A stretch of DNA of 40,050 nt from a virus: IMG/VR virus record IMGVR_UViG_3300047510_001522, positions 1 to 40,050 of that record; one strand, 5' to 3'. Below the pieces are notes generated by a model. It searched no databases. It saw only the letters and a program-made list of their open reading frames with translations, and had not been told where the DNA came from. The position numbers and the translations under genes were made by a program. Shown here piece after piece: positions 14,359 to 34,171 of this stretch (position 1 is its first letter; each line of letters begins with the position of its first letter).

Positions 14359-14504
14359 TGTAGTTTTTCTTTAAGGTACTTGAAAAGTTCTTGAAATAGA
14401 ACAAAAGTCACAAATCCCAAATAGATAACCCCCAATACAGCGATTATTATAAGTGATACAATAACATATATCGTTCCCCGTAAAATGTCAAGTAGTGTAT
14501 TCAT
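14355..14504 (-). CDS. 49-aa single-pass membrane protein
   Basis: Starts at ATG 14504, overlapping the UV-endonuclease stop as ATGA, with GGGAG five bases upstream, and ends overlapping the glycosyltransferase start as ATGA. The peptide has one hydrophobic segment from about residue 11 to 38 (YVIVSLIIIAVLGVIYLGF) and a basic amphipathic tail (FKYLKEKL). Such perfectly interlocked overlaps on both sides make it a real gene. Function unknown. Confidence 0.75.
   Translation of the reverse strand: MNTLLDILRGTIYVIVSLIIIAVLGVIYLGFVTFVLFQELFKYLKEKLQ
14463..14491 (-). promoter_or_regulatory. Possible internal promoter inside the 49-aa gene
   Basis: Minus strand TTGACA, 17 bases, TATGTT within the coding sequence. 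It would drive the glycosyltransferase and IMPDH-family genes separately from the UV endonuclease. Could be chance in AT-rich coding DNA. Confidence 0.35.
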
Positions 14505-15400
14505 ACTAACTCCCGATATTTGAATAGTGCTAGTTCTTTAGCTTTTGCTTCGAGGTCAACATCCAACGTGAGTCCAAAATCGTCAATACGAGAAAAGACA
14601 TAATCAGCATGAGCCCGAGGATTGCCTGTAACATTTTCATTGATATTTTTACTCTCACTATAATGGAAAAGTGGTGTGATACCTTCCGGCCAAGTGCCGG
14701 CGGCAAGTTCTGCTGCTTCTTGGGTGGTCAATCCATCGGGGTGAAACTGATGATGGAAATAGTCGAAGGTAAGTGGAATACCCAACTCTGTGTGTAGGTA
14801 TGTAAACAGTTGAACGACAGAGAATGAGTTTTCTTTGTCATCGTTCTCGACCACCATACGAGCTTGTAGATTCGGTGACAACCTGCGGAAATTGTCAATC
14901 CATCGTTGAGCAGTTTCTTCGGAGAAGTTCATACCCACATGAATATTGATTGCGTTGTAGGGAGTTGTATCAAGCCCCATAAGGTCAAATACTTCGGAAT
15001 GTAGTTCCAAGTCTTTGATAGAATTCTCTACAGCTTTAGGATTTGTTGACCCCAACTTTACAAAGTGGTCAGGGTGAGCGGTAATACGTTGGCCCGTATG
15101 CTTTGCGAAGTTACCGCAGAGTCGTAAGGTACTGGCAATCTCAAAGAAGTCTGGAAGACTTGTGGACTTGTATTCGGTACCCCACGGAAAGATACCAGAC
15201 CCCATACGAAACACTTTGACACCATTATCGGCATTCCACATAAGGATTTCAAGGAGGTCTTTGGTATTTGCAAGTGCAAGTTCAGAAGCGTATTTAATGC
15301 CCTTAGCCTCGAACGTGGCCTTACGCATGGCACGTCCCGTGGTAATACCCTTCTCATTTAGTGTATTGTTGATGCAACAGTAACCAATGTTGATAGGCAC
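14501..15400 (-). CDS. uvsE: UV damage endonuclease UvsE/UvdE family
   Basis: 299 aa. The start is taken as GTG at 15400, because it gives the family opening (INIGYCCINNTL) and has a GGGGG site five bases upstream; a TTG at 15412 is the longer alternative. TIM-barrel repair enzyme: MGSGIFPWGTEY, RITAHPDHFVKLGS, ELHSEVFDLMGLD, INIHVGM, VVENDDKENSFSV and LTFDYFHHQFHP carry the metal-binding His/Asp/Glu residues. The family nicks DNA 5' of UV photoproducts. A sigma70-type promoter lies just upstream (15428-15456), so it is likely expressed early by host polymerase. Confidence 0.93.
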   Translation of the reverse strand: MPINIGYCCINNTLNEKGITTGRAMRKATFEAKGIKYASELALANTKDLLEILMWNADNGVKVFRMGSGIFPWGTEYKSTSLPDFFEIASTLRLCGNFAKHTGQRITAHPDHFVKLGSTNPKAVENSIKDLELHSEVFDLMGLDTTPYNAINIHVGMNFSEETAQRWIDNFRRLSPNLQARMVVENDDKENSFSVVQLFTYLHTELGIPLTFDYFHHQFHPDGLTTQEAAELAAGTWPEGITPLFHYSESKNINENVTGNPRAHADYVFSRIDDFGLTLDVDLEAKAKELALFKYRELV

Positions 15401-15427
15401 AAAAACCCCCAATTAAGTAGTATACTA

Positions 15428-17303: not shown

Positions 17304-17927
17304 TTAAAATCGTGAATTATCGTTTTCTGATTGACTGGACATATGGTCAGCCCAGTGAATAATACGAGGAAGGTTGGTTTTCATCGCATATGGAGCGTAA
17401 TTAATCAGATACGACTTTGCTCCTTCATCATAAATACCATCGGACAACTTGATACCAATCCATTCCTTCTGTGTAATCTTGATATCGTAGTGTTGAAGAA
17501 GATAGAGGGCGCGGTCGGGAACCTTCATATATTGAATGTTCTCGTTCTGCTTATACATCTCACCACGCTTACGGTGCCAATCCGAATCTTGGTCAACATA
17601 ATATGGCCCTTCAACTGGATTACCTAGCTTACCCAAATCGTGATGAAGTGCAGCAAACACCAGCTCTTGCTTGGTGAAGTCTATATCACCGCCAATCTTC
17701 TTATATACCGACGCCAGCTGGAGTGCTGTTTCCGTCACCCGAACCACGTGGTCAAGATATCCGCCGGGAAACGCATTATGAAAATAGGTCTTACCTGCAG
17801 CCGGAGCGGTGGTCAACTCCGTACTGAAATCTTCGTACATTGCGAGAAGTTGCTCAGAACGTTCGTCAGCTTTAACAAACTCTAGAAACTTCTCGTACCG
17901 TTCTTTAAGTTGCTCTTCCGTAACCAT
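17304..17927 (-). CDS. HD-domain phosphohydrolase-like protein
   Basis: 207 aa. HD superfamily metal motifs are visible in order: GGYLDHVVRV, AALHHDLGKLG (the HD pair), LLQHYDI and IIHWADHMSS. Length and pattern fit the HD enzymes that hydrolyse nucleotides or (p)ppGpp-like compounds, but the substrate cannot be read from the sequence. An AAGGAT site lies nine bases before the ATG. Next to the HNH endonuclease, with a 15-base gap. Confidence 0.85.
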   Translation of the reverse strand: MVTEEQLKERYEKFLEFVKADERSEQLLAMYEDFSTELTTAPAAGKTYFHNAFPGGYLDHVVRVTETALQLASVYKKIGGDIDFTKQELVFAALHHDLGKLGNPVEGPYYVDQDSDWHRKRGEMYKQNENIQYMKVPDRALYLLQHYDIKITQKEWIGIKLSDGIYDEGAKSYLINYAPYAMKTNLPRIIHWADHMSSQSENDNSRF

Positions 17928-20794: not shown

Positions 20795-20834
20795 GGTGTA
20801 CTCTCCATAAAGTGTTAATGTAACCTACTTCAAG

Positions 20835-20905
20835 TTGCCCCCCGTGGATTCGAACCACGATAGCCAGGTCCAAAGCCTGGCGTCCTGCCATTGAACGAGA
20901 GGGCA
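20835..20905 (-). tRNA. tRNA-Gln(UUG)
   Basis: Cloverleaf with acceptor TGCCCTC/GGGGGCA, anticodon loop CTTTGGA between CCAGG and CCTGG, and T-loop TTCGAAT. CCA is not encoded. Followed by a weak TTGAAG -35-like element. Confidence 0.93.
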
Positions 20906-20947
20906 ATACGGGGTATGTGTTATGAGGTATCAGCTCACTTATTCAAA

Positions 20948-20975
20948 TATATAGGCGGACACACAACTCCGTCAA
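20948..20975 (-). promoter_or_regulatory. Sigma70-type promoter for tRNA-Gln/lipoprotein unit
   Basis: Minus strand TTGACG, 16 bases, then TATATA, about 40 bases upstream of tRNA-Gln. Confidence 0.6.
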
Positions 20976-20991
20976 GTCTCCCCAACCGCCT

Positions 20992-21018
20992 ACTAGTTTA
21001 TCCGTATGCCAAACTAGT
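20992..21018. repeat. Inverted repeat next to the promoter
   Basis: Perfect 8-bp arms ACTAGTTT / AAACTAGT with an 11-base spacer, just upstream of the -35 box at 20970. Could be an operator or an RNA hairpin. The remaining stretch 21019-21131 holds no convincing gene, only a 26-codon frame without a ribosome site. Confidence 0.4.
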
Positions 21019-21131
21019 CAAAACGCTCCAATCATAACGACACTGGCCCCGCCCTATCATTTTTAAAAGTCTTTCCATTCGCCCGAAGGCTGTTAACGAG
21101 GTGAAAGGTAGGGAAAAGGCCTCGGATAGTA

Positions 21132-21224
21132 CTAATGCTTACGCTTTCTATTTTTCCAACGATTGTTTCGCTTCTTTGAGCCAATCTTACGACGACCCTT
21201 TCCGCACTTTTTTGGATGTGGCAT
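21132..21224 (-). CDS. 30-aa strongly basic peptide
   Basis: ATG at 21224 with GGAG seven bases upstream; ends at TAG. The peptide has 14 Lys/Arg residues in 30 (PHPKKCGKGRRKIGSKKRNN) and one Cys. It resembles a ribosomal-protein-like or DNA-condensing tail, but no family is named. It sits among the tRNAs, as does another basic micropeptide at 35228-35338. Confidence 0.6.
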   Translation of the reverse strand: MPHPKKCGKGRRKIGSKKRNNRWKNRKRKH

Positions 21225-21245
21225 ATTTGACTCCGTGAATATTCA

Positions 21246-21317
21246 TACCGCGTACGGGAATCGAACCCGTCTTACCAGAGTGAAAGTCTAGCGTCCTAGC
21301 CGATAGACGAACGCGGC
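21246..21317 (-). tRNA. tRNA-Glu(UUC)
   Basis: Acceptor GCCGCGT/ACGCGGT (first pair G-U), anticodon loop CTTTCAC, T-loop TTCGATT. CCA is not encoded. Confidence 0.93.
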
Positions 21318-21336
21318 GTATAGAAATATAAATATA

Positions 21337-21365
21337 AACATAAACAACCAATTCAAATTTGTCAA
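21337..21365 (-). promoter_or_regulatory. Sigma70-type promoter abutting tRNA-Leu 3' end
   Basis: Minus strand TTGACA, 17 bases, TATGTT. The -35 box begins two bases after the tRNA-Leu(CAA) discriminator base and points to tRNA-Glu and the basic peptide. Confidence 0.7.
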
Positions 21366-21366
21366 G

Positions 21367-21448
21367 TGCTCCCGGTGAGACTCGAACTCACAAGCCTTTA
21401 GGGCAGAAGTTTTTGAGACTTCCGTGTATACCATTCCACCACAAGAGC
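21367..21448 (-). tRNA. tRNA-Leu(CAA)
   Basis: Acceptor GCTCTTG/CGGGAGC, anticodon loop CTCAAAA in stem GAAGT/ACTTC, long variable arm, T-loop TTCGAGT. CCA is not encoded. Confidence 0.93.
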
Positions 21449-21452
21449 AAAG

Positions 21453-21524
21453 AGCGAGTGGCGGGAGTCGAACCCGCGTCTCTAGCTTGGAAGGCTAGGA
21501 TAATAGCCGTTATATGACACTCGC
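21453..21524 (-). tRNA. tRNA-Gly(UCC)
   Basis: Acceptor GCGAGTG/CACTCGC, anticodon loop CTTCCAA in stem CTAGC/GCTAG, T-loop TTCGACT. One base separates it from tRNA-Val. Confidence 0.93.
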
Positions 21525-21525
21525 A

Positions 21526-21599
21526 TGGGTAGTGAGGGACTCGAACCCCCGACCCTCTCGGTGTAAACGAGATGCTCTAACCAACTGAGCTAACCACCC
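21526..21599 (-). tRNA. tRNA-Val(UAC)
   Basis: Acceptor GGGTGGT/ACTACCC, D-arm TAGCTCAGTTGGTTAGAGC, anticodon loop TTTACAC, T-loop TTCGAGT. Confidence 0.95.
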
Positions 21600-21614
21600 G
21601 TGAACCACATTCTA

Positions 21615-21643
21615 AATATAATGTATGTCACCCAAAATGTCAA
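21615..21643 (-). promoter_or_regulatory. Sigma70-type promoter for first tRNA cluster
   Basis: Minus strand TTGACA, 17 bases, TATATT, immediately upstream of tRNA-Val. Near-consensus, so likely read by unmodified host polymerase. Confidence 0.75.
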
Positions 21644-21661
21644 GGGGTCTATATAAATACT

Positions 21662-22507
21662 TTATATTACAGCCCTACCTTTGTCCAATTCCCAATCCCT
21701 TTCGGGACGCATTTCGAGGTTTTTCTCCCACACCGCATTTAATAACGGGGTGTTTTGTCCGTTCGTATTTCCAAATTGAATTAAGGCATTTATATCTTTT
21801 GGAAAACACGTACCGCCAAACCCAAATTTTCCATCATGCCCAGGCACGTTCCAATGAGTACTTCCCAGCCGTTCATCTTGGTTCAACACGGTAATCATAT
21901 GGTCATAATTGATTCCCGTCTTTTGACAGATTTGCCAAATTTCATTCAAATAGGCAACCTTTGTGGCAAGGAATGTATTTGCAACATACTTAACCATTTC
22001 GGCTTCATCAGAATTGATGATTATTATATTTGCTTCACCGAATCGTTCTCTGTACAAATCATTAACAACTCTAACTTCTCTAGCGTTATTGACATATCCT
22101 AAAATAACATTGACTTGTGACAAGAAATCATTGATATAATTCTTTTCTGTCAAAAATTCTGGGTTAAAGCATATGGTTAGATTTGGGAACTGTTTCGCAA
22201 GTCTCTTTGTTGTACCAGGAGTGATAGTTGATTTCAGTACACAAATCGGTGATGCACTTTCTGACTGGTTTGTAGTTGATATTTCTTGTAAAACTGTTTC
22301 TACAATGTTCGTATTACATGTTCCATCTGGATTCATCGGTGTTGGAACACAGATGAATACTACTTGTGATTTATTAGCTATCTCACCAATAGATTGTTCT
22401 GTACATTCTTTAGCTATATCGTATGTACGAACTTTAGTAATTGTTTCAAATCCCTTAAAAACAGCTGTTCCCACATAACCAAGTCCTATCACTCCAACAT
22501 TTACCAT
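21662..22507 (-). CDS. UDP-glucose/GDP-mannose dehydrogenase family, short form
   Basis: 281 aa. The NAD-binding Rossmann motif GLGYVG is at residues 8-13. Catalytic elements are present: NPEFLTE (116-122), Lys173 in AEMVKYVANTFLATK, and Cys234 in FGFGGTCFPKD. Ordinary family members have about 390-450 residues with a C-terminal nucleotide-sugar-binding domain; this one ends right after the central domain. It may therefore work as a compact phage version or partner with another protein. It oxidises a nucleotide-sugar C6 hydroxyl to a uronate. Close to PurA-like gene (7 bases). Confidence 0.85.
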   Translation of the reverse strand: MVNVGVIGLGYVGTAVFKGFETITKVRTYDIAKECTEQSIGEIANKSQVVFICVPTPMNPDGTCNTNIVETVLQEISTTNQSESASPICVLKSTITPGTTKRLAKQFPNLTICFNPEFLTEKNYINDFLSQVNVILGYVNNAREVRVVNDLYRERFGEANIIIINSDEAEMVKYVANTFLATKVAYLNEIWQICQKTGINYDHMITVLNQDERLGSTHWNVPGHDGKFGFGGTCFPKDINALIQFGNTNGQNTPLLNAVWEKNLEMRPERDWELDKGRAVI

Positions 22508-22514
22508 AAAAACC

Positions 22515-23528
22515 TCAAATTCCGTTCGGGGTCATTGACCATACAATTTCTTCTACATCGGTATACTCATATAGAATATCATTAATTTGCGCTTTGAATT
22601 CGTCTAATGTTAGAACTTCGTACACTACTCCACCATAGACATATTTGAATACACCGACTTGAGCCAAAATATCTGCTTTATTGATAATTAAGTCGGTAAC
22701 ACCATTGATATTGGCGGCTTTAATAACGCCATCTAAATCTAACCAACGAACCTTCCGCTTCCGGCCAGTAGTAGCACCGAATTCACCACCTGCTTCTTGA
22801 ATTTTTTGAAGGTCTGGGTCATTTTCATCTTGGAATGTGGTCTTAAAACCTGAGTAGGTTTCATATGCTTTCATAATTCCATAGATGTGACGAAGGCAGC
22901 GGGGGGAAATTCCATTCAAGATTGCCGAACCGACTGTACAATGTGAACTCGTCACATATGGGTAATCACCCCAATCAATATCAATCTGGAATCCTTGAGC
23001 GCCTTCACACAAAATACGCCAATCGTTGTGTTTGTTGTGGAACAATTCATAAGTATCAATGACACTAAAATCTTTTATGGAACTTGTGTCCAAATCACCG
23101 ATACGCGTTCCTTGACGGGAGTACTTATCACGATAGGCGGGACCAATACCTTGACGAGTTGTTCCAATCTTGGAATCGCGGGTATCTTCATCTATATGAT
23201 ACCCAAACACTACATGAGCTCGTTTATCGACGAAGATTAATCCGTCTGTCTTGATTCCTTGTGCTTGTAAATCACGAATTTCTTCTACCAACTTGGGAAT
23301 ATTGACCACACATCCCAATCCAATAACACTTGGAATACCAAATAGCACACCAATCGGAACAAGATGAGTTACGACTTTCTTCCCATCGTGATATACCGTG
23401 TGACCGGCGTTTGACCCACCATTATACCGAAAAATCATATCATAATTTTTAGCAAGTGCGTGAGCAACCTTCCCCTTACCAGTATCACCTGCTTGTAAAT
23501 CTACAATTACATCAGCATGTTTAATCAT
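22515..23528 (-). CDS. Adenylosuccinate synthetase family (PurA/PurZ-like), short archaeal-type length
   Basis: 337 aa, the length of archaeal PurA and phage PurZ rather than bacterial PurA (about 430). P-loop region: DLQAGDTGKGK with Asp15 (the PurA catalytic Asp) retained but the next residue Thr instead of Glu. NAGHT with His43, IGTTRQGIGPAY (121-132), Arg138, EGAQG (175-179), an L-Asp loop FGATTGRKRK (250-259), and NKAD (283-286) for guanine recognition. PurA joins Asp to IMP; PurZ joins Asp to dGMP in 2-aminoadenine phages and lacks the Asp. Mixed features leave the substrate open. Another purine enzyme is encoded at 12711-13742. An AAAGG site precedes the ATG. Confidence 0.9.
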   Translation of the reverse strand: MIKHADVIVDLQAGDTGKGKVAHALAKNYDMIFRYNGGSNAGHTVYHDGKKVVTHLVPIGVLFGIPSVIGLGCVVNIPKLVEEIRDLQAQGIKTDGLIFVDKRAHVVFGYHIDEDTRDSKIGTTRQGIGPAYRDKYSRQGTRIGDLDTSSIKDFSVIDTYELFHNKHNDWRILCEGAQGFQIDIDWGDYPYVTSSHCTVGSAILNGISPRCLRHIYGIMKAYETYSGFKTTFQDENDPDLQKIQEAGGEFGATTGRKRKVRWLDLDGVIKAANINGVTDLIINKADILAQVGVFKYVYGGVVYEVLTLDEFKAQINDILYEYTDVEEIVWSMTPNGI

Positions 23529-23543
23529 AACCTTTGACCTTTA

Positions 23544-24044
23544 TTATAGTGTATCTATTACTATTCTATTTATATCAAATGTTTCCCCAGGGTCTTTCTT
23601 TCGTCCCCACGGAAACGCAATTTCAGAATGTGTATACAGTTGGTGACCGACATTTCTATATCTAGATTTTAACTGATTCACCATCAACTGTAGACTTGCG
23701 TATTGTTTATCAGTATATCGTAATCCGTTTTTACCTTGTAAACAAATACCAATACTAAAATCATTCCAACTTAACATTCCGTCTTTTAGTGAAATTCCTG
23801 CGTGTTTTGCAACATATTTGGGGTCCACATACTGATATATTTTTCCGTTTCTATCTATAAAATAATGATATGCTAATCTCCGTCTACGAAGTACACTATG
23901 TGTTTGCCGTGCGGACATATTAGAGCCATCATTATGAATCACGATAAAGTTTCGTGTCGTGTCTCGTAATGTTTTTGCAGGTAACGGCATCCTTGTTATC
24001 TGCGGTGCTTGTATTGCTAAAACAAGTAATAAAGTTTTAATCAT
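23544..24044 (-). CDS. N-acetylmuramoyl-L-alanine amidase (amidase_2/PGRP-like)
   Basis: 166 aa with an N-terminal signal-like segment (MIKTLLLVLAIQA). Family motifs: FIVIHNDGSNMSA with the first zinc His, LAYHYFIDRNGKIYQYVD, VAKHAGIS, FSIGICLQG, and THSEIA followed by KKDPGETFD carrying the last ligands. It cleaves the amide between MurNAc and L-Ala in peptidoglycan. Strong AAGGAGG site. It follows a terminator/promoter hairpin (24060-24096). Secreted form suggests periplasmic delivery without a canonical holin. Confidence 0.88.
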   Translation of the reverse strand: MIKTLLLVLAIQAPQITRMPLPAKTLRDTTRNFIVIHNDGSNMSARQTHSVLRRRRLAYHYFIDRNGKIYQYVDPKYVAKHAGISLKDGMLSWNDFSIGICLQGKNGLRYTDKQYASLQLMVNQLKSRYRNVGHQLYTHSEIAFPWGRKKDPGETFDINRIVIDTL

Positions 24045-24059
24045 AAGGCACCTCCTTAA

Positions 24060-24096
24060 AATATAAAGTGGGGATTGATTTTGTCAACCCCCACTT
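24060..24096 (-). terminator. Strong hairpin overlapping a possible promoter
   Basis: 13-bp stem AAGTGGGGGTTGA / TCAATCCCCACTT (one G-U in RNA) with a five-base loop, followed on the minus strand by TATATTTT. It ends the lipoprotein transcript. TTGACA inside the hairpin, 16 bases and TATATT also form a promoter for the amidase gene. The overlap would let the two functions exclude each other. Confidence 0.65.
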
Positions 24097-24124
24097 AAAT
24101 AAATAGATGTAAAATTCTATTTTA

Positions 24125-24607
24125 TTATGGTCTTGGACGATTTGTTATCAACCAATTTCTTTGTGCCGGTGTCAATACACCAAAAATTGCGATGTGTAAT
24201 TGACGAGTTGGTTCCCGTAATGATTCTGTAATTGGTCGTGCTTCTAATAATATAGTCATTACTTCTTGACGAGTTGCTCCATCACGACGAGCGAGGCGTG
24301 CTCGTTCAAATACTGCACGCAATGCCGTCAACTTTTCTTGATGTGTTTGGCGGAATTGGTCACGAAGTGCTTTGATTGCTGCCGCTTGTGTTGCGGTTAT
24401 CTTCAATGAATCTGGAAGTCTAGCAAATCCAGCAGTCCGACCGTCTGTTGGGTGTCCTCTATGTTGTTCTCCAAGAGTTCCTTCCAATGCCACACCAGTT
24501 TCACCAAATACAACTAATGAATAATCTTCAGCAGGAATAGTTGGTGCTACTGGTGACGAACATGCGGTAAGTAATCCAATCAATGAAATTAATAATAAAT
24601 TTTTCAT
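24125..24607 (-). CDS. Lipoprotein with LTxxQ-like (Spy/CpxP-type) features
   Basis: 160 aa from the ATG at 24607, chosen because GGAGG lies four bases upstream; an ATG 45 bases earlier lacks such a site. Signal MKNLLLISLIGLLTACSS with lipobox Cys16. The mature part has DSLKITATQAAAIKALRDQF, helix-rich Arg/Gln segments and a terminal VLTPAQRNWL, matching the LTxxQ-like helical pattern of periplasmic Spy/CpxP chaperones. High Arg and lower AT suggest it was acquired from a bacterial genome. Could buffer periplasmic stress during infection (inference). Confidence 0.7.
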   Translation of the reverse strand: MKNLLLISLIGLLTACSSPVAPTIPAEDYSLVVFGETGVALEGTLGEQHRGHPTDGRTAGFARLPDSLKITATQAAAIKALRDQFRQTHQEKLTALRAVFERARLARRDGATRQEVMTILLEARPITESLREPTRQLHIAIFGVLTPAQRNWLITNRPRP

Positions 24608-24661
24608 ACTACCTCCATTTAAGTTCGTATTATTAGACGCACAAAAAATCAAAATGTTAAA

Positions 24662-25261
24662 TTACTTCACTAATTCGTAGAATTCCTTGAAGTGCTTGAT
24701 ACGGTCTGCCAATCCGATGGTACCACCATTTACCTTCTTGGTGATTGCGGTTACATCTGCATCGGTTGCACCCTTGTCTGCTAATTCATTGAGCTTACGT
24801 GAATTCCAGAACCATGCTGCTGAAAGAAGTGGGTACTTGGTTGCTACGAGGTCTGGATTTGCAGTGATGTCTTCTGCGACAACCTTATCAAATGCTGAAT
24901 AATTGTCCTTACCAGTTAATTGAATATATCCACGACCACGATATTTGAAACCGTCACCAGATGCTTCTGGGCCGTTGCCCATACGACCACCATAAACCAA
25001 GTTTGCAATCTTTTCTGGCTTACGTTCGTATTCTGCTGCCTTTGCATCAGTTGGGAAGTACTTTCCAAAAATACCACGAAGTCCCTTTGCACCATAGTTT
25101 AGATTTTCATTCACTGCCTTGAAGTTGCCGGATTCGTGACCACATTGTGCAAGAAAGTGGCAAAGACGAAGTGGGGTGTTGATTTGGAACTTGTCCATTA
25201 CTTCTGGAATTTGAGCAATAACTGCGTCTGGAACGTGACCTTTGAGTTTACTGATGTCCAT
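24662..25261 (-). CDS. Glycoside hydrolase family 19 endolysin
   Basis: 199 aa, no signal peptide. GH19 signatures: FLAQCGHESGNF with catalytic Glu43, LNYGAKGLRGIFGKYFP, GFKYRGRGYIQLTGKDNY, and SAAWFWNSRKLNELAD. Phage members cleave peptidoglycan glycan strands. As it lacks a signal, it probably needs one of the holin-like proteins upstream. AGGAGAAACGT ribosome site. Follows the lipase gene by 17 bases. Confidence 0.93.
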   Translation of the reverse strand: MDISKLKGHVPDAVIAQIPEVMDKFQINTPLRLCHFLAQCGHESGNFKAVNENLNYGAKGLRGIFGKYFPTDAKAAEYERKPEKIANLVYGGRMGNGPEASGDGFKYRGRGYIQLTGKDNYSAFDKVVAEDITANPDLVATKYPLLSAAWFWNSRKLNELADKGATDADVTAITKKVNGGTIGLADRIKHFKEFYELVK

Positions 25262-25278
25262 ACGTTTCTCCTAATTGG

Positions 25279-26058
25279 TTAAGATTGTGATACGTCATTC
25301 ATTGCCCAGAATGTCAAGTTTTCCGTGTACAATTCTGATGAATGGTCCTTTGCATCTCCTGCGATTAACTTGAAAATGCCGTGTGGTAATAGCAGGGATA
25401 AAATACGTTTCCAACTAATTTTTCTATCAAACTCAACTATAACCTTTCCGTCACTACCGATGTGATGCATCGTACCGCAGTGATAGTAGAATGGAACAAA
25501 TGGAACTTTGGTTACAATATCACCGTCATTTACCCAACGATGATGTGTAATTTGACCATTGAATTCATTAATATATGCACGATTACCAACACGTGGACTA
25601 CCATATGTAAATAATGTTGGAACTCTCATACTGATGTCCAATACACAACGACGAGCCATCAAAGTTGCCATTGCCGCACCTAAACTATGTCCAGTAAACC
25701 AAATATCTTTGTTCTTAATTGGACTAATATGTGCTTTAATTGGTTCCCAAATCTTGTCGGTGTATGTTCTAAATCCACGATGAACCTTGCCGATACCCGT
25801 GCGTGATGGAGTCAATGCTATACTAAGGTCTGCACTAATATCACTCCATTCTTTGACTTCAGTACCACGACATACGACTACTACATCGTCTTTACTTTCA
25901 ATTACATATGCGTTACTACCTTCATTTCCGTAATATGTTACTTCGTCAAACCCTGCTTTCTTAAATAACTTGGTTGCTTCTTTTGGTGCTTGATATGCTA
26001 AATTACTAAATCTTGCAAATAATGCGCTTTGTTCTGAGAACGGTAATTCTTTAATCAT
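25279..26058 (-). CDS. Class 3 (fungal-type) lipase-like alpha/beta hydrolase
   Basis: 259 aa. The nucleophile elbow FTGHSLGAAMAT with Ser125, VVVCRGTEVKEWSDI (oxyanion/strand region), VNDGDIVTKVPF (candidate Asp) and a His in YHCGTMHHIG complete the lipase-3 arrangement. No signal peptide. It probably cleaves lipid ester bonds. Position between a lipoprotein and the GH19 lysin suggests membrane damage at lysis. Rare in tailed phages. AAGGAGC ribosome site. Confidence 0.88.
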   Translation of the reverse strand: MIKELPFSEQSALFARFSNLAYQAPKEATKLFKKAGFDEVTYYGNEGSNAYVIESKDDVVVVCRGTEVKEWSDISADLSIALTPSRTGIGKVHRGFRTYTDKIWEPIKAHISPIKNKDIWFTGHSLGAAMATLMARRCVLDISMRVPTLFTYGSPRVGNRAYINEFNGQITHHRWVNDGDIVTKVPFVPFYYHCGTMHHIGSDGKVIVEFDRKISWKRILSLLLPHGIFKLIAGDAKDHSSELYTENLTFWAMNDVSQS

Positions 26059-26067
26059 AACTGCTCC

Positions 26068-27504
26068 TTATAGTGTTACCCGTGAACCGATGAGTAAAAA
26101 GTGTAGAGGTTTTCCTGTTGACGGAACCATTACTCTGTGTGCGCCTGTCATACCGAATCGTTTGGTAATCTTATAGTCTACCGAGTTACCAATCATTGCA
26201 CTGAGTTGGTCACTGAATGTAAACTTGGTCATATCATTATATGAGACTGGTGCACCCAGTAAAAATACTTGTGGAGAAAGTGTTGCTCGTTCGTTTATTT
26301 GAATTGGATTATGCATCCAAAATGCAGCAAATGATGTTGCATAACTAATTGCTGTTTTCTTTTCCATTTCATCTGGTACTGCTAAAATAATTACATTACC
26401 ACTAATCCCGACCACACCCCATTTTGGACTTGGTTTGACCCAAGTTGCACCTGCCATATTCATCCAAGTTCCTTTGAGATATGCAGTAGTGTTTGCATAC
26501 GACATAATGTGTTTTAACTTACCCTTATCAAACTTCATTTTAGAATATGATGCGTTGATAGCTCCTTGGTCAAAAGTCAACCAAAGAATACCAGTGACCC
26601 CATAACTCTTATCACCTGCTAATGAAGATTGAGAAACACCCGTGGTCAACATTGCGGTCAAACTACCATCTGGATTTTGACCGGTTGTTAAATCGGATGC
26701 TACCAATAAAGGATTAACATTTTCACCACCCTTTTTCTTTTCTTCTTTCTTTTCGTCCTTCTTCTCTTCAGACTTTTCTTCAGACTTAGATTCAGATTTA
26801 CTTTCTTCTGACTTTGATTCCGATTTAGATTCCGATGAAGATTCTGACTTAGCCTCGGCTTTAGCTTCTGCGGGTTTAGATTCTGCCGCGGGTTCTCCAC
26901 CACCACCACTTGATGTGGGTGCTGGTTCTGACGATGAACTAGAAGGAGCAGGAGTAGAGGACGAACTACTAGATGGTGCGGGTGCAGCTGGTGCCGCAGG
27001 TGCTGCAGGAGCGGGTGGTGGTGTTGGGGGTGGTGTAGACGCCGCCGCTGACGTTGCAGCAGAACTTGCTGCACTATTTGCCGCCGAACTTGCCGCATTA
27101 CCTGCTGCTGATGACGCGGCGGATGATGCCGCAGATGACGCTGCCGCACTTGCTGCCGCTGATGCCGCAGCACTTGCCGCAGCGGACGCCGCTTGTGTTG
27201 CAGCTTGTGTTGCTACTGTCGTTGTTGTTTGTGTCACAACTGGATTATTCACCACAGGACACGGAATATTAACCGTAACTTGATTAATCCATGTTAATAG
27301 TTCACCTGCTTGTGCTTGTGCCGCAGTAAAAATCTTGGATTGACCACGATACGAAATCAGTACACCAGGCCCATTAATAGGAAATGTTGCCGTTTGAACT
27401 GTATTCGTACACGGGTCAACCCAAGTTTGTACTACAACTTGTGCTTTACCACAGCTTGATGCTACAAATAATAATAGTATAACTGCGGTTCTAATATATT
27501 TCAT
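26068..27504 (-). CDS. Lipoprotein with Ala/Ser and acidic repeats and barrel-like C-terminal domain
   Basis: 478 aa. Signal MKYIRTAVILLLFVASSCGK with lipobox Cys18. Residues about 95-165 are Ala/Ser repeats of AASAAASAA type, then Pro/Ala and Ser-rich linkers, then a Ser/Lys/Glu stretch (ESKSESKSEESKSESKSEEK) to about residue 260. The last 210 residues alternate hydrophobic/polar and end SVDYKITKRFGMTGAHRVMV ... LLIGSRVTL, clearly related to the end of the 290-aa protein at 29093-29965. Probably an outer-membrane barrel on a long surface stalk. Start overlaps the nuclease stop as ATGA. Confidence 0.75.
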   Translation of the reverse strand: MKYIRTAVILLLFVASSCGKAQVVVQTWVDPCTNTVQTATFPINGPGVLISYRGQSKIFTAAQAQAGELLTWINQVTVNIPCPVVNNPVVTQTTTTVATQAATQAASAAASAAASAAASAAASSAASSAASSAAGNAASSAANSAASSAATSAAASTPPPTPPPAPAAPAAPAAPAPSSSSSSTPAPSSSSSEPAPTSSGGGGEPAAESKPAEAKAEAKSESSSESKSESKSEESKSESKSEEKSEEKKDEKKEEKKKGGENVNPLLVASDLTTGQNPDGSLTAMLTTGVSQSSLAGDKSYGVTGILWLTFDQGAINASYSKMKFDKGKLKHIMSYANTTAYLKGTWMNMAGATWVKPSPKWGVVGISGNVIILAVPDEMEKKTAISYATSFAAFWMHNPIQINERATLSPQVFLLGAPVSYNDMTKFTFSDQLSAMIGNSVDYKITKRFGMTGAHRVMVPSTGKPLHFLLIGSRVTL

Positions 27505-28121
27505 TGTTTAATTAGTAACTTTGTAAGTTTCTTTACACTATCCAACGGTACCTTATGCATTTCAAATGACTTTGACCGTTCTGGAACATTTGGAAACACA
27601 TACGCTTCCGATTGTCCCTTGACCCAAATCACCTTCCAGCAGTGTGTAGGAACCGCGACGCGATTCATCTTTTGTGCTTCACCAACACATCCTGCCTTAA
27701 CAATGACTGAATCATTTTCTACAGCGAGAATACGAGTCCATTCTTCTAAGTTCTTCCATTGCCCACGGTTCAATCCTGGATATTGTGGAGCCATATTGGT
27801 GAAATAGAAACTTTCTGCCATATGTTTTTCATTACACCGTGCATCTGCGGCTGGTGAAATGTGTCCACGGTCAAATCCAGACTTGACATAATCTTCATCA
27901 ATATTACTTTCTTTCTTGATGTTTGGGTCTGGGAGGAACTTGTCCGTACGCTTTGCTGGATTCTTACATTCCAACTTACTACGAGTCACTGTCCATTCCA
28001 CAAGCACAGGATACCTCTTACTCACAGAAAATACCGATTCATAGTTGCCATGTTTCACCCGAACGGTATCCTGCGCTTGTAATGGAAGTGCTAATAAGAA
28101 AAATACTAATAGTTTTTTCAT
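27501..28121 (-). CDS. Secreted DNA/RNA non-specific endonuclease (NUC family)
   Basis: 206 aa with signal peptide MKKLLVFFLLALPLQAQ. Active-site motif SGFDRGHISPAAD with DRGH at 84-87, followed by FYFTNMAPQ and NRGQWKNLE carrying the metal-binding Asn and Glu. The family cleaves single- and double-stranded nucleic acid non-specifically and needs Mg. Export to the periplasm or outside suggests degrading competing DNA, or host DNA after lysis, without harming cytoplasmic phage DNA. Start overlaps the dockerin gene stop (TAATG). Confidence 0.9.
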   Translation of the reverse strand: MKKLLVFFLLALPLQAQDTVRVKHGNYESVFSVSKRYPVLVEWTVTRSKLECKNPAKRTDKFLPDPNIKKESNIDEDYVKSGFDRGHISPAADARCNEKHMAESFYFTNMAPQYPGLNRGQWKNLEEWTRILAVENDSVIVKAGCVGEAQKMNRVAVPTHCWKVIWVKGQSEAYVFPNVPERSKSFEMHKVPLDSVKKLTKLLIKQ

Positions 28122-28363
28122 TAGTTTTTCTTTTTACCAGTTATCTTCTTTGCACGTGGCTTACGAACCTTCTTGACCACTTCTGCTGCTGCCTTAACAT
28201 CCTTAAGGTCAACTTTGCCATCACCATTGACATCAAGTGTCTTTGCTACTGCTGCTTCAACCTTCTTGACAGTACCAACAAGCTTAAGTGGTTGTTGCGA
28301 CTTTCTGGTGAGTACGAATGCAACTGCTACTGCTACTAATAATAAAACAAATACCGTTGTCAT
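28121..28363 (-). CDS. Membrane-anchored dockerin/EF-hand protein
   Basis: 80 aa. Residues 3-19 are a transmembrane segment (TVFVLLLVAVAVAFVLT). Residues 44-55 are one canonical calcium loop, DVNGDGKVDLKD, of dockerin-I type, flanked by helices. The last 15 residues are very Lys-rich (RKPRAKKITGKKK). A single EF repeat is half a dockerin, so binding could need a dimer. In the same operon as a cohesin-containing protein (31455-33500). Orientation of the domain relative to the membrane is not known. Confidence 0.75.
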   Translation of the reverse strand: MTTVFVLLLVAVAVAFVLTRKSQQPLKLVGTVKKVEAAVAKTLDVNGDGKVDLKDVKAAAEVVKKVRKPRAKKITGKKKN

Positions 28364-28373
28364 AAAAAACTCC

Positions 28374-29084
28374 TTAGTTTGGGAAAATCTTCTTGCGGAC
28401 CATCCGCGTTACTATCTTTGCTGATGCATCTTCGAGTGCTTTCTTAGTACTGGTACCGATGGTACTTTGGTTGAACTTGATTTCACCAAAGTTATCATCG
28501 TTCATAAGGGTTAATTCACGAACTGTTTTTGCTTCCCCTAATCCAGAACCAGTAAAGTATTCACCAGTTTCTGCGTCAACGAACTTCACCTGCAAGCCTA
28601 AACGAGTAACCACTTTATTTTTAACACCATCTTTTAAATTGATGGTTTCATCTTCGGATACTGAAAAATCATAGACTTCAATATATACAAAGTAACGAGC
28701 TAACTTAATCTTTCCACGACCATCTAATTTGTTTTCAGTAAATCCAGATTGTGATGCTTGAAATTGCTTGACCATTCTGTTCTTGATTTCTGTCTTATCT
28801 TCGGTGAAGGTAAAACGATTGGTTTCTTCCAAGTATTCCACAACGATATTGGTGACCCCAAGACCAACACGCTTGTCTTTGAGTTCTGGGTACATTGCAA
28901 ATACTTCTTCACCGATACCGATGTTTAATAGTTGAATAGGAACTTTTGGTCCTTCGTAATCCATCAATGAATCAATATTGACCTTTTTTTCAAATGATGC
29001 CTTATATTCCTCGGTAACAGTCTTTCCAACAACTTGTGCTGAGAGAAGAGTTGGGAGTAATAATAATACGAGTAATTTTTTCAT
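28374..29084 (-). CDS. CsgG-like (curli secretion channel family) secreted protein
   Basis: 236 aa with signal MKKLLVLLLLPTLLSAQ, no lipobox Cys. CsgG/FlgT-type sequence: LGVTNIVVEYLEETNRFTFT, VKQFQASQSGFTENK, ARYFVYIEVYDFSVSE, LGLQVKFVDAETGEYFTGSG and a C-terminal helix ALEDASAKIVTRMV. CsgG normally forms a nonameric outer-membrane pore for curli subunits and is lipidated; this one is not. Homologs occur in some T4-like phages. May form a pore or modify host export. Follows the 290-aa barrel gene closely. Confidence 0.8.
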   Translation of the reverse strand: MKKLLVLLLLPTLLSAQVVGKTVTEEYKASFEKKVNIDSLMDYEGPKVPIQLLNIGIGEEVFAMYPELKDKRVGLGVTNIVVEYLEETNRFTFTEDKTEIKNRMVKQFQASQSGFTENKLDGRGKIKLARYFVYIEVYDFSVSEDETINLKDGVKNKVVTRLGLQVKFVDAETGEYFTGSGLGEAKTVRELTLMNDDNFGEIKFNQSTIGTSTKKALEDASAKIVTRMVRKKIFPN

Positions 29085-29092
29085 TGGATATC

Positions 29093-29965
29093 CTAAAATT
29101 GAAATTGTGTTCCAACCATAAATATAACTGGATTACTTTTTTTGTATCCTACCGATTCACCAAATTTGTCAAGTGTGGTGTTCAATCTAATGTTGGTGTT
29201 CAATACAAATCGTTTTGTGATTTTCCAATCCACAGATGTTCCGTAATACACATCTAAATTGAAATCACTGAAATATGCAATATTGGTTATACCGTTTTTG
29301 TAAACCTTATGTATATCGCTAAGTGCAAATATCTGTGGTGAGATGTTCACCTTGCCTGTTTTGAAGGTGTAGGTGTACATCAGCATGGCTCTGGTTATTA
29401 CTTGACTGGATGCTGGATTAATGGGATAGATGTTCTTCACCCAGTTTCCTTGTTCATCCACTATATATTCCCCTTGCCATGCACCCTCATATTCTCCCCA
29501 AAAGTTCTTGGATACATTCACAGTAGCACCGAATGTACCAAATGTTTTTGTTGGAAACAATTCTATCACGGAAAGTGTGATGTTCTTTTGAAAATCAAAA
29601 TCCGTGGAAACAAATGCTTGGAGCGTGGAGGTTACATGATTGGTGTTTCTGGTAATTCCATAACCAGCACCATAATAATCCCAAGCAGGATTTAGTGATG
29701 TTAGGAAGGATTGACTCCATGCTCCAGACAATGAAGATTTGTTGTATCCTAGATTCAAAGTTGTAGACACCTGTTTACCAACGATGCTTACAGATAGATT
29801 AGAGGATGACAACACATCTTTTTGAAAATCCACATACGATTGCACTACACCAATACCATTCCACGCAGAACTTGCTTCAAACAATTCTTTGGGTGATAGT
29901 TTTACTGTATCAGCCTGTGCCATCAACAATGACGGAACCAAAAGTAACCATAATAATTTTTTCAT
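29093..29965 (-). CDS. Outer-membrane beta-barrel-like protein
   Basis: 290 aa with signal MKKLLWLLLVPSLLMAQ. The mature part is a run of amphipathic beta strands (GATVNVSKNFWGEYEGAW, MLMYTYTFKTGKVNISPQIF, DVYYGTSVDWKITKRF) and it ends in VIFMVGTQFQF, a C-terminal Phe signal typical of barrels inserted by the BAM machinery. The last 80 residues resemble those of the 478-aa lipoprotein. It likely sits in the host outer membrane. Possible roles are superinfection exclusion, permeability change or surface display; none shown. Confidence 0.8.
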   Translation of the reverse strand: MKKLLWLLLVPSLLMAQADTVKLSPKELFEASSAWNGIGVVQSYVDFQKDVLSSSNLSVSIVGKQVSTTLNLGYNKSSLSGAWSQSFLTSLNPAWDYYGAGYGITRNTNHVTSTLQAFVSTDFDFQKNITLSVIELFPTKTFGTFGATVNVSKNFWGEYEGAWQGEYIVDEQGNWVKNIYPINPASSQVITRAMLMYTYTFKTGKVNISPQIFALSDIHKVYKNGITNIAYFSDFNLDVYYGTSVDWKITKRFVLNTNIRLNTTLDKFGESVGYKKSNPVIFMVGTQFQF

Positions 29966-30255
29966 TATTCTTCCTCTTCACCAGCCTTTGCTTGCTTGAC
30001 TGCTGTTGGTGAGAACTTTTCCAATCCTGCGATACCAAATGAACCTAATGTGATGACCATGAATGAATTGTATACGAATTCATGAATTTCCAATGGAATA
30101 CCCATAACACCTGTTACAAGGTCCACCAAAGAATACAAGGTCATCACTGCAAATGATAGGAAGCCAATTACTGTCTTTTCGTTATATTCATTGTTATCTT
30201 GGAAAATTTGTGAAAACTTTGATAACAATCCTTTTTGAATTTGTTTTGCATCCAT
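29965..30255 (-). CDS. Holin-like two-TM membrane protein
   Basis: 96 aa. Two hydrophobic segments, about residues 28-48 (VIGFLSFAVMTLYSLVDLVTG) and 62-80, separated by a short loop, then a Glu-rich tail. Size and layout match class II holins, and neighbours include membrane and wall-degrading enzymes, but no sequence motif proves it. Overlaps the barrel gene by one base. Confidence 0.65.
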   Translation of the reverse strand: MDAKQIQKGLLSKFSQIFQDNNEYNEKTVIGFLSFAVMTLYSLVDLVTGVMGIPLEIHEFVYNSFMVITLGSFGIAGLEKFSPTAVKQAKAGEEEE

Positions 30256-30256
30256 A

Positions 30257-30664
30257 TTAACCTCCTAACGTATTTGAGAAGGATTGTCCATCTTCTTCAT
30301 CCATCTTTTGTACCAACATCTTGTCCTTGTCGGTGTCTGAGAACCAGTAATCAATTATTTTACCATATGAACCGATGAAAGCACCTAACATAAGTAGAAG
30401 AAGTTCTTTCCATTCACCGTCGATTGCTGTTTGATTATATACTGCCATTGTAATACCACCAACAATTAACATAAAGGTGATAAGAACAATTGCCGTAATG
30501 TTCCAACGACGAGCCATCATCTTAAATAACATTTCTTGAAACTTACTTTCTTGTGCTGCTGATTTTTCTGCTGATGTAGTCATTGGAGTTTCCTCAATTG
30601 GGGTTGCATCTAAAACCGAAACTTCAGTTTCTTCAGATGTTGTAATTTCTTCTTCATTTCGCAT
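30257..30664 (-). CDS. Two-TM membrane protein with acidic N-terminus
   Basis: 135 aa. Residues 1-48 are acidic and disordered (EEITTSEETEVSVLDATP). Two membrane helices lie at about 55-75 (ITAIVLITFMLIVGGITM) and 86-105 (LLLLMLGAFIGSYG), followed by DYWFSDTDKDKMLV. Candidate holin or holin partner. The 5' end overlaps the 59-aa frame upstream by 55 bases. Confidence 0.7.
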   Translation of the reverse strand: MRNEEEITTSEETEVSVLDATPIEETPMTTSAEKSAAQESKFQEMLFKMMARRWNITAIVLITFMLIVGGITMAVYNQTAIDGEWKELLLLMLGAFIGSYGKIIDYWFSDTDKDKMLVQKMDEEDGQSFSNTLGG

Positions 30665-30789
30665 AGATTAATTTCCTCATTGGTATGAGTTGATTCATAG
30701 TAAAAGAAACCCCAACCTGCGTAAGCAGGTTCTTTTTTAGCCATAGCTTCTACTCGTTCACCGTAATCTTTAACCTCTTTGGGAGTCAT
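30610..30789 (-). CDS. 59-aa protein overlapping the two-TM gene
   Basis: Begins at ATG 30789, four bases after the stop of the 88-aa gene; a longer version upstream would overlap that gene and is not accepted. Residues 1-38 look ordinary (TPKEVKDYGERVEAMAKKEP, AGWGFFYYES), while the last 17 overlap the next gene out of frame. No good ribosome site, so translation would be by coupling. Function unknown. Confidence 0.5.
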   Translation of the reverse strand: MTPKEVKDYGERVEAMAKKEPAYAGWGFFYYESTHTNEEINLCEMKKKLQHLKKLKFRF

Positions 30790-30793
30790 ACGG

Positions 30794-31060
30794 TTACCAC
30801 TTTGGTTCTTCTTTTGCCCAATCGTCCTTCTTTTTTGGTGCTGGAGCTGGTGCTGCTGCACCACCACCTGAACCACCCTTGACTGTGTTGTTATTTTCAA
30901 GGTTGATAACTACTGGTGCAGCTGCTGGTGGTGGGGTTGTTGCTGCTTCATCGCCACCCATTAATTGCTTACCAACTACACCTGCGATTGCGGTCACAAT
31001 AATGGTTACTAAACCAATGATTGCGTTCTTTAATCCACCGCCTGAACTTTCTTCTGACAT
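30794..31060 (-). CDS. Single-TM protein with Pro/Ala and Gly linkers
   Basis: 88 aa. One membrane segment at residues 10-31 (LKNAIIGLVTIIVTAIAGVVG), then TTPPPAAAPVVINL, NNNTVKGGSGGGAAAPAPAP and a charged Lys/Asp/Trp tail. No lipobox. Looks like an anchored linker protein, perhaps a spanin- or Rz-like piece; not recognised. Confidence 0.65.
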   Translation of the reverse strand: MSEESSGGGLKNAIIGLVTIIVTAIAGVVGKQLMGGDEAATTPPPAAAPVVINLENNNTVKGGSGGGAAAPAPAPKKKDDWAKEEPKW

Positions 31061-31069
31061 AACGTTCTC

Positions 31070-31447
31070 CTATTGTTTGTTGATGATTACTGGAATCTTG
31101 ACAACGTTGCCAGAGACATCCAGTAGGTTTAAGTCATAAGAACCATTTTTAATCTTGGTGTAATCAAGGTTAATTACTTGATTCACTTTATCTGCAGTAA
31201 ATCCTTCAATTGCTAATACCTTACCATCAATACTGGTAAGTTGTAAACTATACAACGCACCTGGTGTGACTTCAACTAATACCGATGCGTGACCATCCGT
31301 AGTCGTAACTTTTTGTGTTCTAAACTTTGTGGAGGTTGATGTCACTCCCAAATCAAGTGGTTTACTCATATCTGGATTAAAAATATTATTGTCGTAGCAA
31401 CCAATTACCAAAAGGGAAATTATCCCGTATCGTAAATAGTTTTTCAT
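31070..31447 (-). CDS. Lipoprotein resembling a T9SS type A C-terminal domain
   Basis: 125 aa. Signal MKNYLRYGIISLLVIGCYDN with lipobox Cys17. The rest is one beta-sandwich-like unit: YSLQLTSIDGKVLAIEGFTA, INLDYTKIKNGSYDLNLLD and GNVVKIPVIINKQ, which is close to the order of strands in type IX secretion sorting domains (GKxL, L-x-x-G-x-Y). A Lys/Gln end fits too. Whether it is a sorting domain, a fold relative or a host-acquired fragment is open. Sits next to the cohesin protein. Confidence 0.6.
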   Translation of the reverse strand: MKNYLRYGIISLLVIGCYDNNIFNPDMSKPLDLGVTSTSTKFRTQKVTTTDGHASVLVEVTPGALYSLQLTSIDGKVLAIEGFTADKVNQVINLDYTKIKNGSYDLNLLDVSGNVVKIPVIINKQ

Positions 31448-31454
31448 ATTACTC

Positions 31455-33500
31455 CTATCGGAAGTTACTGATACCGACTAAACGGATTACAGTAGAGGAA
31501 AGGTTAATACCAACCTGATTACCTTTATTGTCTGCTGCGTCCATAACCTGTGTCAAAACCACAGAGGTGTTTAGGTCTACACCAGCCTTCAATGCTACGA
31601 GTTGTAACTTGAATGGGGTGAGATTTGCTCCTGTTAATGGGTTCTTTAAATCTTTATCAACTGCACCAAAACGAACAGTTCCGTCCACCATTGGATGAAC
31701 GAACGATACCCAACTTGGAGTATCAATATTCATTTTCACAAACTTCACCAATGTTGGGTCATACTTGACTTCATATTGTAAACCAGATAATACGATACCC
31801 TTTGTATCTACATTGAAAGGAATGTTAATAGTATCACCTGTAACTACTACGTTGTTGACCTTTGTATCAATACTTTGACCACTTGGAACCACCAAATTAC
31901 CCCAACCGTAAATCGCTGCTTGTTGTTCTGTGACCAATGAAGAATGTGATAGGTTCACATCACCCTTCAATGCGTAACGAAGGTCAAGGTTTTGTTCACT
32001 TGTAGTGGTTCGTGCGTGAACGTATCCTGATGTTTTATTACTGAACTTTGCATTGGAACTAATTGCGTAATCTACATTTTGATTATTAATATTTCTAATG
32101 TTACTATTAAATGCAGATGTTCCGTTGGTTGCTTTGGTGAAACTTGATGCAATCTTGTAGAATGCCCAACTTGCATCACTTGACATAAAGGTGACAGGTC
32201 CGTTATACACATCAAGAATATTCATCCACTTCACAGATGATGGTGTGACACCTGCTGGAAACTCACGCATATCTACATAGAATCTGGTTTGACCTGCACC
32301 ATATCCATTGAGATTGATGATGGCATATTCTGTTTGACCTGGAATGATATCAATGGTCTTGCCCGTCATTAAATCATTCCAATTGGTCAATGGTGTGTTG
32401 TCGTAATCTGCTCCGTGGAACAATGGAATACTGATACTACAGTTTGCTGCACATCCTGCTGGTGGTGCCATAATGGTATCCAATCCAGTTACGGCGTTGA
32501 ATAACACTTGAACATCCCCACCATCAAATACACCATCATTATTGACATCTGCTGCCCAATACTTCATACCCTTGTTGATGTTGTTGTTCTTAAATGTACG
32601 GTCAAGATTTTGGGTAATCCATTCTTGTTGTGCTGCGGTAAAGTCAGAGATAGTGGTTGCTGCCAAACTCAATGGTGCTAAACTATCTGCTGGTAATACC
32701 AATCGGAACTTGTATGGTGAGTTAACTTGCAGTTGTTGTGCAAATGCAAATTGCCCATTACCCCCCACTGCTGCATTAGCAACTTCAGTGGGTTGTGGTA
32801 GTGTATCAGTAATAGACAACCGCATCAAATTTTTCAATCCTGCGGTAGTATTTGCACTATGTTTTACTTCACCGACAATCAAGTTGTTTGCGTTAGGTGC
32901 TAAATTAATCCACACACCTTTTGCCCCAACGTTTTGTGTATTGGTCATAGTTCCACCATTTACATCATATCCAACAGCAAAGTTCATGTATACGGAATCG
33001 TATGGAAACCCCGCATCCGTCTTGGCAATTCTAAAACGGAGTTTGATGTATGTAGCGTGGTCCAAGTTTTGCGCACTGGACACATTCACTTGAATACGAT
33101 TGATGGCATGATAGGGAACAGTTGATGCGTTACAAGTGTATTGCGCATTCATATAATTGTTCCAAGCATTATCAGTGGTGTTAGTTGCAGTTCTGTTGAA
33201 CTTACAGTTAGGATAATAGTAGTTGGTGTAGGTGAAATTGGCTCCTTGCGGAATACCTGCACCTGATTGCACATCCAACAATGTGATGGCATCCTTCTGA
33301 TGTTGGAAATCAAAGAACACCGAACGAATCGTGGAGAAGTTTGGGTTCAACTTCACTTCCAAAGAAATCGTATCATTTTTTACAATTGGACCACCATTAG
33401 TATTGGTACTGATGGTGTTTGCGCCCCACCAAAGTGCGGGTTGCGCTTCTACTTTGACGAATGGCAGAAGTAGAAGAACTGCCATTAAAATGTTTTTCAT
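31455..33500 (-). CDS. Secreted cohesin-dockerin multidomain protein
   Basis: 681 aa with signal MKNILMAVLLLLPFVKVEAQ. Residues about 38-210 are a cohesin-like beta sandwich. Residues 318-329 hold a calcium loop DVNNDGVFDGGD of dockerin type, then a beta-rich middle region. A second cue, ALKGDVNLSHSSLV, near residue 510 resembles a dockerin-like repeat. The last 140 residues (GLQYEVKYDPTLVKFVKM, TPFKLQLVALKAG) are a second cohesin-like fold. Very large for an early or lysis-region secreted phage protein. Probably displayed at the cell surface, with a partner in the 80-aa dockerin protein (inference). Confidence 0.75.
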   Translation of the reverse strand: MKNILMAVLLLLPFVKVEAQPALWWGANTISTNTNGGPIVKNDTISLEVKLNPNFSTIRSVFFDFQHQKDAITLLDVQSGAGIPQGANFTYTNYYYPNCKFNRTATNTTDNAWNNYMNAQYTCNASTVPYHAINRIQVNVSSAQNLDHATYIKLRFRIAKTDAGFPYDSVYMNFAVGYDVNGGTMTNTQNVGAKGVWINLAPNANNLIVGEVKHSANTTAGLKNLMRLSITDTLPQPTEVANAAVGGNGQFAFAQQLQVNSPYKFRLVLPADSLAPLSLAATTISDFTAAQQEWITQNLDRTFKNNNINKGMKYWAADVNNDGVFDGGDVQVLFNAVTGLDTIMAPPAGCAANCSISIPLFHGADYDNTPLTNWNDLMTGKTIDIIPGQTEYAIINLNGYGAGQTRFYVDMREFPAGVTPSSVKWMNILDVYNGPVTFMSSDASWAFYKIASSFTKATNGTSAFNSNIRNINNQNVDYAISSNAKFSNKTSGYVHARTTTSEQNLDLRYALKGDVNLSHSSLVTEQQAAIYGWGNLVVPSGQSIDTKVNNVVVTGDTINIPFNVDTKGIVLSGLQYEVKYDPTLVKFVKMNIDTPSWVSFVHPMVDGTVRFGAVDKDLKNPLTGANLTPFKLQLVALKAGVDLNTSVVLTQVMDAADNKGNQVGINLSSTVIRLVGISNFR

Positions 33501-33501
33501 A

Positions 33502-33987: not shown

Positions 33988-34038
33988 AAACTGTCTCCTG
34001 TGAATGACATAGACAATTAAAAAGAACCCGTTATATAC

Positions 34039-34073
34039 AAAAATTCCATCGTAATATAAATATCACGATGGAA
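34039..34073 (-). terminator. Intrinsic terminator after tRNA-CAU cluster
   Basis: Perfect 9-bp stem TTCCATCGT / ACGATGGAA plus an inner ATAT pair, followed on the minus strand by ATTTTTG. It separates the tRNA unit from the secreted-protein block. Confidence 0.8.
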
Positions 34074-34166: not shown

Positions 34167-34171
34167 TACAG

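Follow-up and report, generated by a model that had tools for sequence, protein, structure and literature searches.

Does a virus gene whose product joins the catalytic aspartate of adenylosuccinate synthetase (PurA) to the P-loop threonine of phage PurZ point to 2-aminoadenine (Z) DNA, or is it a PurA of an unusual kind? The question is raised by a gene of 337 codons translated from a 40-kb virus fragment, which is called the window in its full length of 40,050 nucleotides. An earlier note on this DNA had read the gene as an enzyme of archaeal-type length and a possible intermediate toward Z-DNA. We examined its residues, its relatives, the genes around it, and the partner genes expected of Z-DNA phages.

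RESULTS

A virus-specific family of short PurA proteins

The 337-amino-acid protein belongs to PF00709 (E = 2e-83, 280.9 bits for a cut-off of 27), and its best score against the NCBIfam PurA equivalog models is 274 bits, below their cut-off of 402. The sequence features described earlier, namely a P-loop reading DLQAGDTGKGK with Asp15 and Thr16, an NKAD motif, and the segment TYSGFKTTF, are all found in the translation (Table 1). Asp15 and Thr16 are invariant across 42 aligned family members, and Asp15, Thr16, Asn283, Lys284, and Asp286 across 49, so that these motifs are not due to chance; because QAGDTGK was one of the two seeds of the second family search, the invariance of Thr16 is partly built in there, the first search having used no such seed. 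At the TRVG site the alignment splits the family into one part with TYSGFK-like segments and another with TYVGxK, in which Val is kept. Thus, replacement of the TRVG-type motif by TYSGFKTTF holds for the window protein, and Val is replaced in only part of the family.

Table 1. Features of the window discussed in the text
Feature	Positions	Strand	Basis
Short phage PurA-like adenylosuccinate synthetase, 337 aa	22515..23528	-	PF00709, AlphaFold2 model, dN/dS
P-loop GDTGKGK; Asp15 = E. coli Asp13, Thr16 = E. coli Glu14	23469..23489	-	Translation; alignment with E. coli PurA, PurZ, PurZ0
TYSGFK in place of PurA TRVGxG (E. coli Arg272/Val273 region)	22842..22859	-	Alignment
Aspartate-binding loop GATTGRKR; Arg256/Arg258 = E. 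coli Arg303/Arg305	22755..22778	-	Arg invariant in 42 members
NKAD guanine-specificity motif (E. coli Lys331, Asp333), residues 283-286	22671..22682	-	N, K, D invariant in 49 members
IMP dehydrogenase/GMP reductase-fold enzyme without CBS domains	12711..13772	-	PF00478, E = 7.5e-101
HD-domain protein, retained close to PurA in about 18 related loci	17304..17927	-	PF01966, 25.6 bits
UV-damage endonuclease UvdE/UvsE	14501..15412		Above NCBIfam cut-off
Class 3 lipase	25279..26058		
22 tRNA genes in two clusters	20834..39757		

A first scan of IMG/VR yielded 35 loci with 54 to 84% identity, and a profile scan extended the family to at least 107 loci on contigs of up to 294 kb, the GC content of loci and contigs being 28 to 47%. 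The family is monophyletic in the tree (support 100/100), and dN/dS toward close relatives is 0.04 to 0.13, with dS near saturation; judged from these ratios, it is under purifying selection. A search of 84,980 species genomes, run with two short peptide seeds and thus non-exhaustive, returned no closely related cellular gene and a single ordinary PurA fragment. The nearest match in the annotated phage collection (41% identity), found in a 735-kb uncultured phage, is a PurA with the usual DE P-loop that lies outside the family and whose sole relative found is one near-identical contig. The papers searched contain no account of such a subfamily, and that collection contains no close relative of it. 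By sequence, then, the family defines a large virus-specific PurA subfamily. Some records labelled as phage (e.g., OR846603 and MT837463) carry ordinary full-length bacterial-type PurA and are apparently contaminating chromosome pieces.

Residues, trees, and fold

Most of the catalytic and ligand residues of PurA that were checked are retained. In E. coli PurA numbering, Asp13, Lys16, Asn38, Gly40, His41, Thr128, Thr129, Arg143, Gln224, Thr239, Thr301, Arg303, Arg305, Lys331, and Asp333 are kept in the 42 members, the exceptions being Glu14, Val273, and the unaligned C-terminal guanine loop (414-416). Retention of NKAD supports the earlier suggestion that GTP is the phosphate donor. The catalytic Asp13 is present in 42/42 members and is Ser in phage PurZ and PurZ0; published counts give Ser at this position in 100% of 147 phage PurZ sequences and Asp13 in 99% of PurA sequences of the E. 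coli group (PMC12884076). Thr128, Arg303, Lys331, and Asp333, all kept by the family, are altered in PurZ, where the Arg303 position is Leu or Lys. In PurA, Arg303 balances the ribose O2' of IMP, and its displacement in PurZ accounts for part of the deoxy-specificity of that enzyme (PMC8342488). Eight columns set PurZ and PurZ0, which share a residue there, apart from all PurA; at none of them does the family majority carry the PurZ residue. Of 74 positions invariant in the nine bacterial-type PurA used, 49 are conserved in the family and 19 in the PurZ set. Relative to bacterial PurA, the protein lacks about 95 residues and carries substitutions at Glu14, at Arg272, and in part of the Pro/Gly loop, so that kinetics or substrate could differ; the new purine substrate that had also been envisaged may exist, and nothing found here gives it positive support.

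In the trees, which include a single archaeal PurA, the family falls on the side of bacterial PurA (95/100, with 95% bootstrap), and with bacterial PurA again (96/99.9, with 96% bootstrap) when a more careful alignment was used with positions 8 and 14 masked. This is the placement with ordinary PurA that the earlier note had expected to speak against its reading, and the AU test leaves a grouping of the family with PurZ formally unrejected on either alignment (p = 0.157, and 0.083 with the better one). An archaeal origin, i.e., a grouping with archaeal PurA, was marginally rejected (AU p = 0.049, one archaeal sequence). The AlphaFold2 model of the protein (pLDDT 86) retrieved bacterial PurA at 1e-27, archaeal PurA at 1e-22, and PurZ at 1e-18 in a fold search. 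Since the family groups with bacterial PurA in trees and fold, its archaeal-like length is most simply explained by independent shortening; the term "archaeal-type" is thus apt for length and fails for ancestry.

The mixed P-loop belongs to a pattern in which positions 8 and 14 covary in our sample: Gly8 goes with Glu14 in PurA, PurZ0, and Bacillus phage BpsS-140, Asp8 with Thr14 in PurZ and the short PurA family, and Asp8 with Ala14 in mycobacteriophage Sebata. The swap occurs irrespective of the residue at position 13. Thr16 in the window protein therefore probably reflects structural compensation, arisen more than once, rather than a step toward Z.

Z-DNA partner genes

The earlier note had proposed a search for Z genes, and the records of 25 relatives, which may be incomplete, lack DatZ and DpoZ. 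For DatZ (PF12917), one sub-threshold match was obtained in the 25 records and five of six Z-phage controls scored; a strong DpoZ-type PolA was found in none, all matches being weak and partial, and in five Z controls matches were strong. Family-B polymerase matches occur in 11/25 records, and DUF550 stands alone in 3/25: the 735-kb phage, which does not belong to the family, and two family phages that carry DUF550 (dATP/dGTP pyrophosphohydrolase) without DatZ or DpoZ (G042:191981-192262 and G044:61884-62165). The HD-domain protein of the window was considered as a stand-in for DatZ, and its model (pLDDT 73) gave no significant match in a fold search. Altogether, the missing Asp13-to-Ser change, trees on the bacterial PurA side, and the lack of DatZ and DpoZ in relatives leave the idea of an intermediate toward 2-aminoadenine DNA unsupported, and membership in PurZ or PurZ0 was rejected on the kept Asp13, the diagnostic columns (0/8), and the Z partners absent from the related records.

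A GMP reductase-like neighbor

The IMPDH/GMPR-fold gene of the window probably begins at the ATG at 13742. An alignment of its product with GuaC of E. coli and human GMPR2 shows that the catalytic Cys, Thr, and Glu (CTT and NVEG motifs) are kept. The flap of the enzyme is truncated and has no Arg-Tyr dyad. GMP reductases lack this dyad and have a truncated flap (PMC2525682); all IMPDH references carry it in a long flap, and it is absent from every phage sequence whose flap is full-length, as it is from GMP reductases. Because the dyad that IMPDH needs is absent, we read the enzyme as a GMP reductase, and an IMPDH function is disfavored. In the tree the enzyme is placed closer to IMPDH than to GMPR, and it reaches neither NCBIfam cut-off (GMPR 236 bits for 344; IMPDH higher, 282, also below its own), so that GMPR function is not certain and, on sequence grounds, probable.

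A gene of this fold is present in 20/25 and 6/21 related records (the 25 include the 735-kb phage). Among family contigs of at least 50 kb, which may be incomplete and some of which are near-copies of one another, 17 of 31 carry it and 14 do not. It lies about 2 to 26 kb from the short PurA gene, on the same strand in the cases checked. These neighbors fall into three separate lineages, all without the Arg-Tyr dyad, and one lineage is plain GMP reductase (NCBIfam 367 to 382 bits, compared with at most 173 for IMPDH; PDB GMPR2, E = 1e-90). As a rough background that is not size-matched, 73 of 50,697 annotated phage records match the GMPR-fold protein of the window, many of them bacterial contamination. 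Cultured phages such as Cr30, phage G, and YS40 have GMPR-like genes and are missing from the listed PurA matches, so that the two genes need not go together. A search of the open literature for a phage GMP reductase together with PurA gave nothing relevant.

Other genes around the locus

A UDP-glucose-dehydrogenase-like gene lies downstream of the short PurA gene, an amidase and a chitinase-class endolysin upstream, and the window also carries T4-like baseplate genes and numerous tRNA genes (Table 1). The lipase gene adjoins the lysis genes and is kept in related contigs, and 21 related loci have the UV-damage endonuclease gene close to PurA. In PADLOC, none of the PurA-like, GMPR-fold, and HD proteins matched a defense gene. 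One sub-branch of the family carries GTP cyclohydrolase I (FolE; G013:9758-10294, G016:88441-88977, G019:156715-157251, and G027:15856-16389) and a QueC-like protein near the PurA gene (L035:7064-7621), a lead toward 7-deazaguanine DNA modification. In the same FolE/QueC sub-branch, an IscA-type iron-sulfur assembly gene ends just ahead of the PurA start (L120:5665-5985 and nine other loci). A fusion of an APS-kinase/AAA-like and a cytidylyltransferase-like domain (possibly NMN adenylyltransferase) overlaps the end of the PurA gene (L035:5019-5810, with homologues in 10 other loci).

DISCUSSION

The gene product is, in our view, probably an adenylosuccinate synthetase of bacterial PurA descent that has been shortened and adapted to phage use, and that is fed IMP by the nearby GMPR-type enzyme. 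Family membership, the retained catalytic and substrate residues, the GMPR-type flap, the recurrent proximity, and purifying selection are all established at the sequence level. In the model that we propose, the partner would convert GMP and NADPH to IMP, and the short PurA would then join IMP and aspartate, at the expense of GTP, into adenylosuccinate. Since no PurB is encoded in 32 records, the lyase step would fall to host PurB (adenylosuccinate lyase), releasing AMP. Acting together, the two phage enzymes would, in the infected cell, draw host purine out of guanylate and into adenylate, from which AT-rich phages such as these would benefit, and family phages without a GMPR-fold partner could still draw on host IMP.

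An unlikely explanation, although one to be weighed against this model, is that the enzyme performs the ordinary PurA reaction freed from host regulation (e.g., by ppGpp or nucleotide inhibition), supplying AMP under infection stress, with the GMPR-fold neighbor incidental. It would suit a protein with intact catalytic residues but trimmed surface loops and C-terminal domain, as well as the larger contigs without a GMPR-fold gene (14/31) and the GMPR-like genes of other phages that lack such a PurA. The occurrence of three unrelated GMPR-fold lineages near one PurA family is, however, hard to call chance.

It is quite unlikely that PurA and its GMPR-like partner work on deoxynucleotides, from dGMP through dIMP to N6-succino-dAMP, whether to turn guanine of host DNA into adenine of phage DNA or to provide phage DNA with an N6-modified adenine. 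Very unlikely, too, is the version in which PurA acts on dIMP made by the GMPR-like enzyme from the dGMP of degraded host DNA, with dAMP as the product. Phages do degrade host DNA, and the ribose-facing TRVG segment is altered, but Arg303 is kept, unlike in deoxy-specific PurZ, Val273 is kept in part of the family, and GMPR substrates are normally ribonucleotides.

We regard as highly improbable a PurZ-type enzyme or PurZ0-like intermediate making a 2-aminoadenine precursor from dGMP for a phage with Z-DNA. Asp8 and Thr14 do match ATP-using PurZ, GTP use would parallel PurZ0, and the AU test tolerates the grouping; set against this are Asp13 in every member, the kept Arg303, the diagnostic columns, and the related records, with their missing DatZ and strong DpoZ-type PolA where controls score, their solitary DUF550, and their family-B polymerase matches. 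The view that the gene was recently captured from a host or is contaminating bacterial DNA, and has no function in the virus, suggested by PurA being a universal host gene and by the seemingly contaminating bacterial contigs among "phage" database matches, has a negligible probability and is refuted for the family as a whole by its many viral loci without a close cellular gene in the species genome collection, its flanking phage lysis, baseplate, and tRNA genes, its monophyly, and its strong purifying selection.

The preferred model, a short PurA coupled to a GMP reductase, suggests a two-gene phage route from guanylate to adenylate for which at least three different GMPR-fold genes would have been acquired, and makes purine rebalancing during infection testable. 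Our results also carry a warning for PurZ annotation. A "PurZ-like" P-loop Thr belongs, together with Asp8, to a recurrent G8D/E14T swap and is no indicator of Z-DNA, for which Asp13 versus Ser is the informative position; under the PHROG/GenBank label "2-aminooxy adenylosuccinate synthetase", genes of this kind would carry the wrong name.

Comparison with known systems

The phage GMP reductases of Caulobacter phage Cr30 and Bacillus phage G (gp120) represent the enzyme family of the neighbor gene, with a truncated flap and no Arg-Tyr, and among the matches listed in the annotated collection they were not seen with the short PurA family. The "PurA-like" protein of mycobacteriophage Sebata likewise keeps Asp13 and has Asp8 with a non-Glu residue at position 14, but it is 442 amino acids long, 27% identical, and on a very long branch of its own. 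Archaeal PurA (Pyrococcus horikoshii, 5k7x) has a similar length (~340 amino acids) and the catalytic residues, with sequence and fold scores below those of bacterial PurA. PurZ (S-2L and phiVC8) and PurZ0 (Gordonia phage Archimedes, 7vf6) are, like the family, phage-encoded, short, and of the same superfamily; the family shares Asp8/Thr14 with ATP-using PurZ and the GTP-motif Asp with PurZ0, and differs from both in having Asp13 and Thr128 in place of Ser, Arg303, and a full GTP motif, as well as in related records without DatZ and DpoZ. Bacterial PurA (PF00709; E. coli and B. anthracis, 4m9d) differs in its length of about 430 amino acids against 337, much of the C-terminal part being gone from the family, which also has the G8D/E14T swap, TY[SV]G for TRVG, and scores below the NCBIfam PurA cut-offs; it shares with the family the fold, Asp13 and His41, the residues for IMP, aspartate, and GTP, and the tree grouping.
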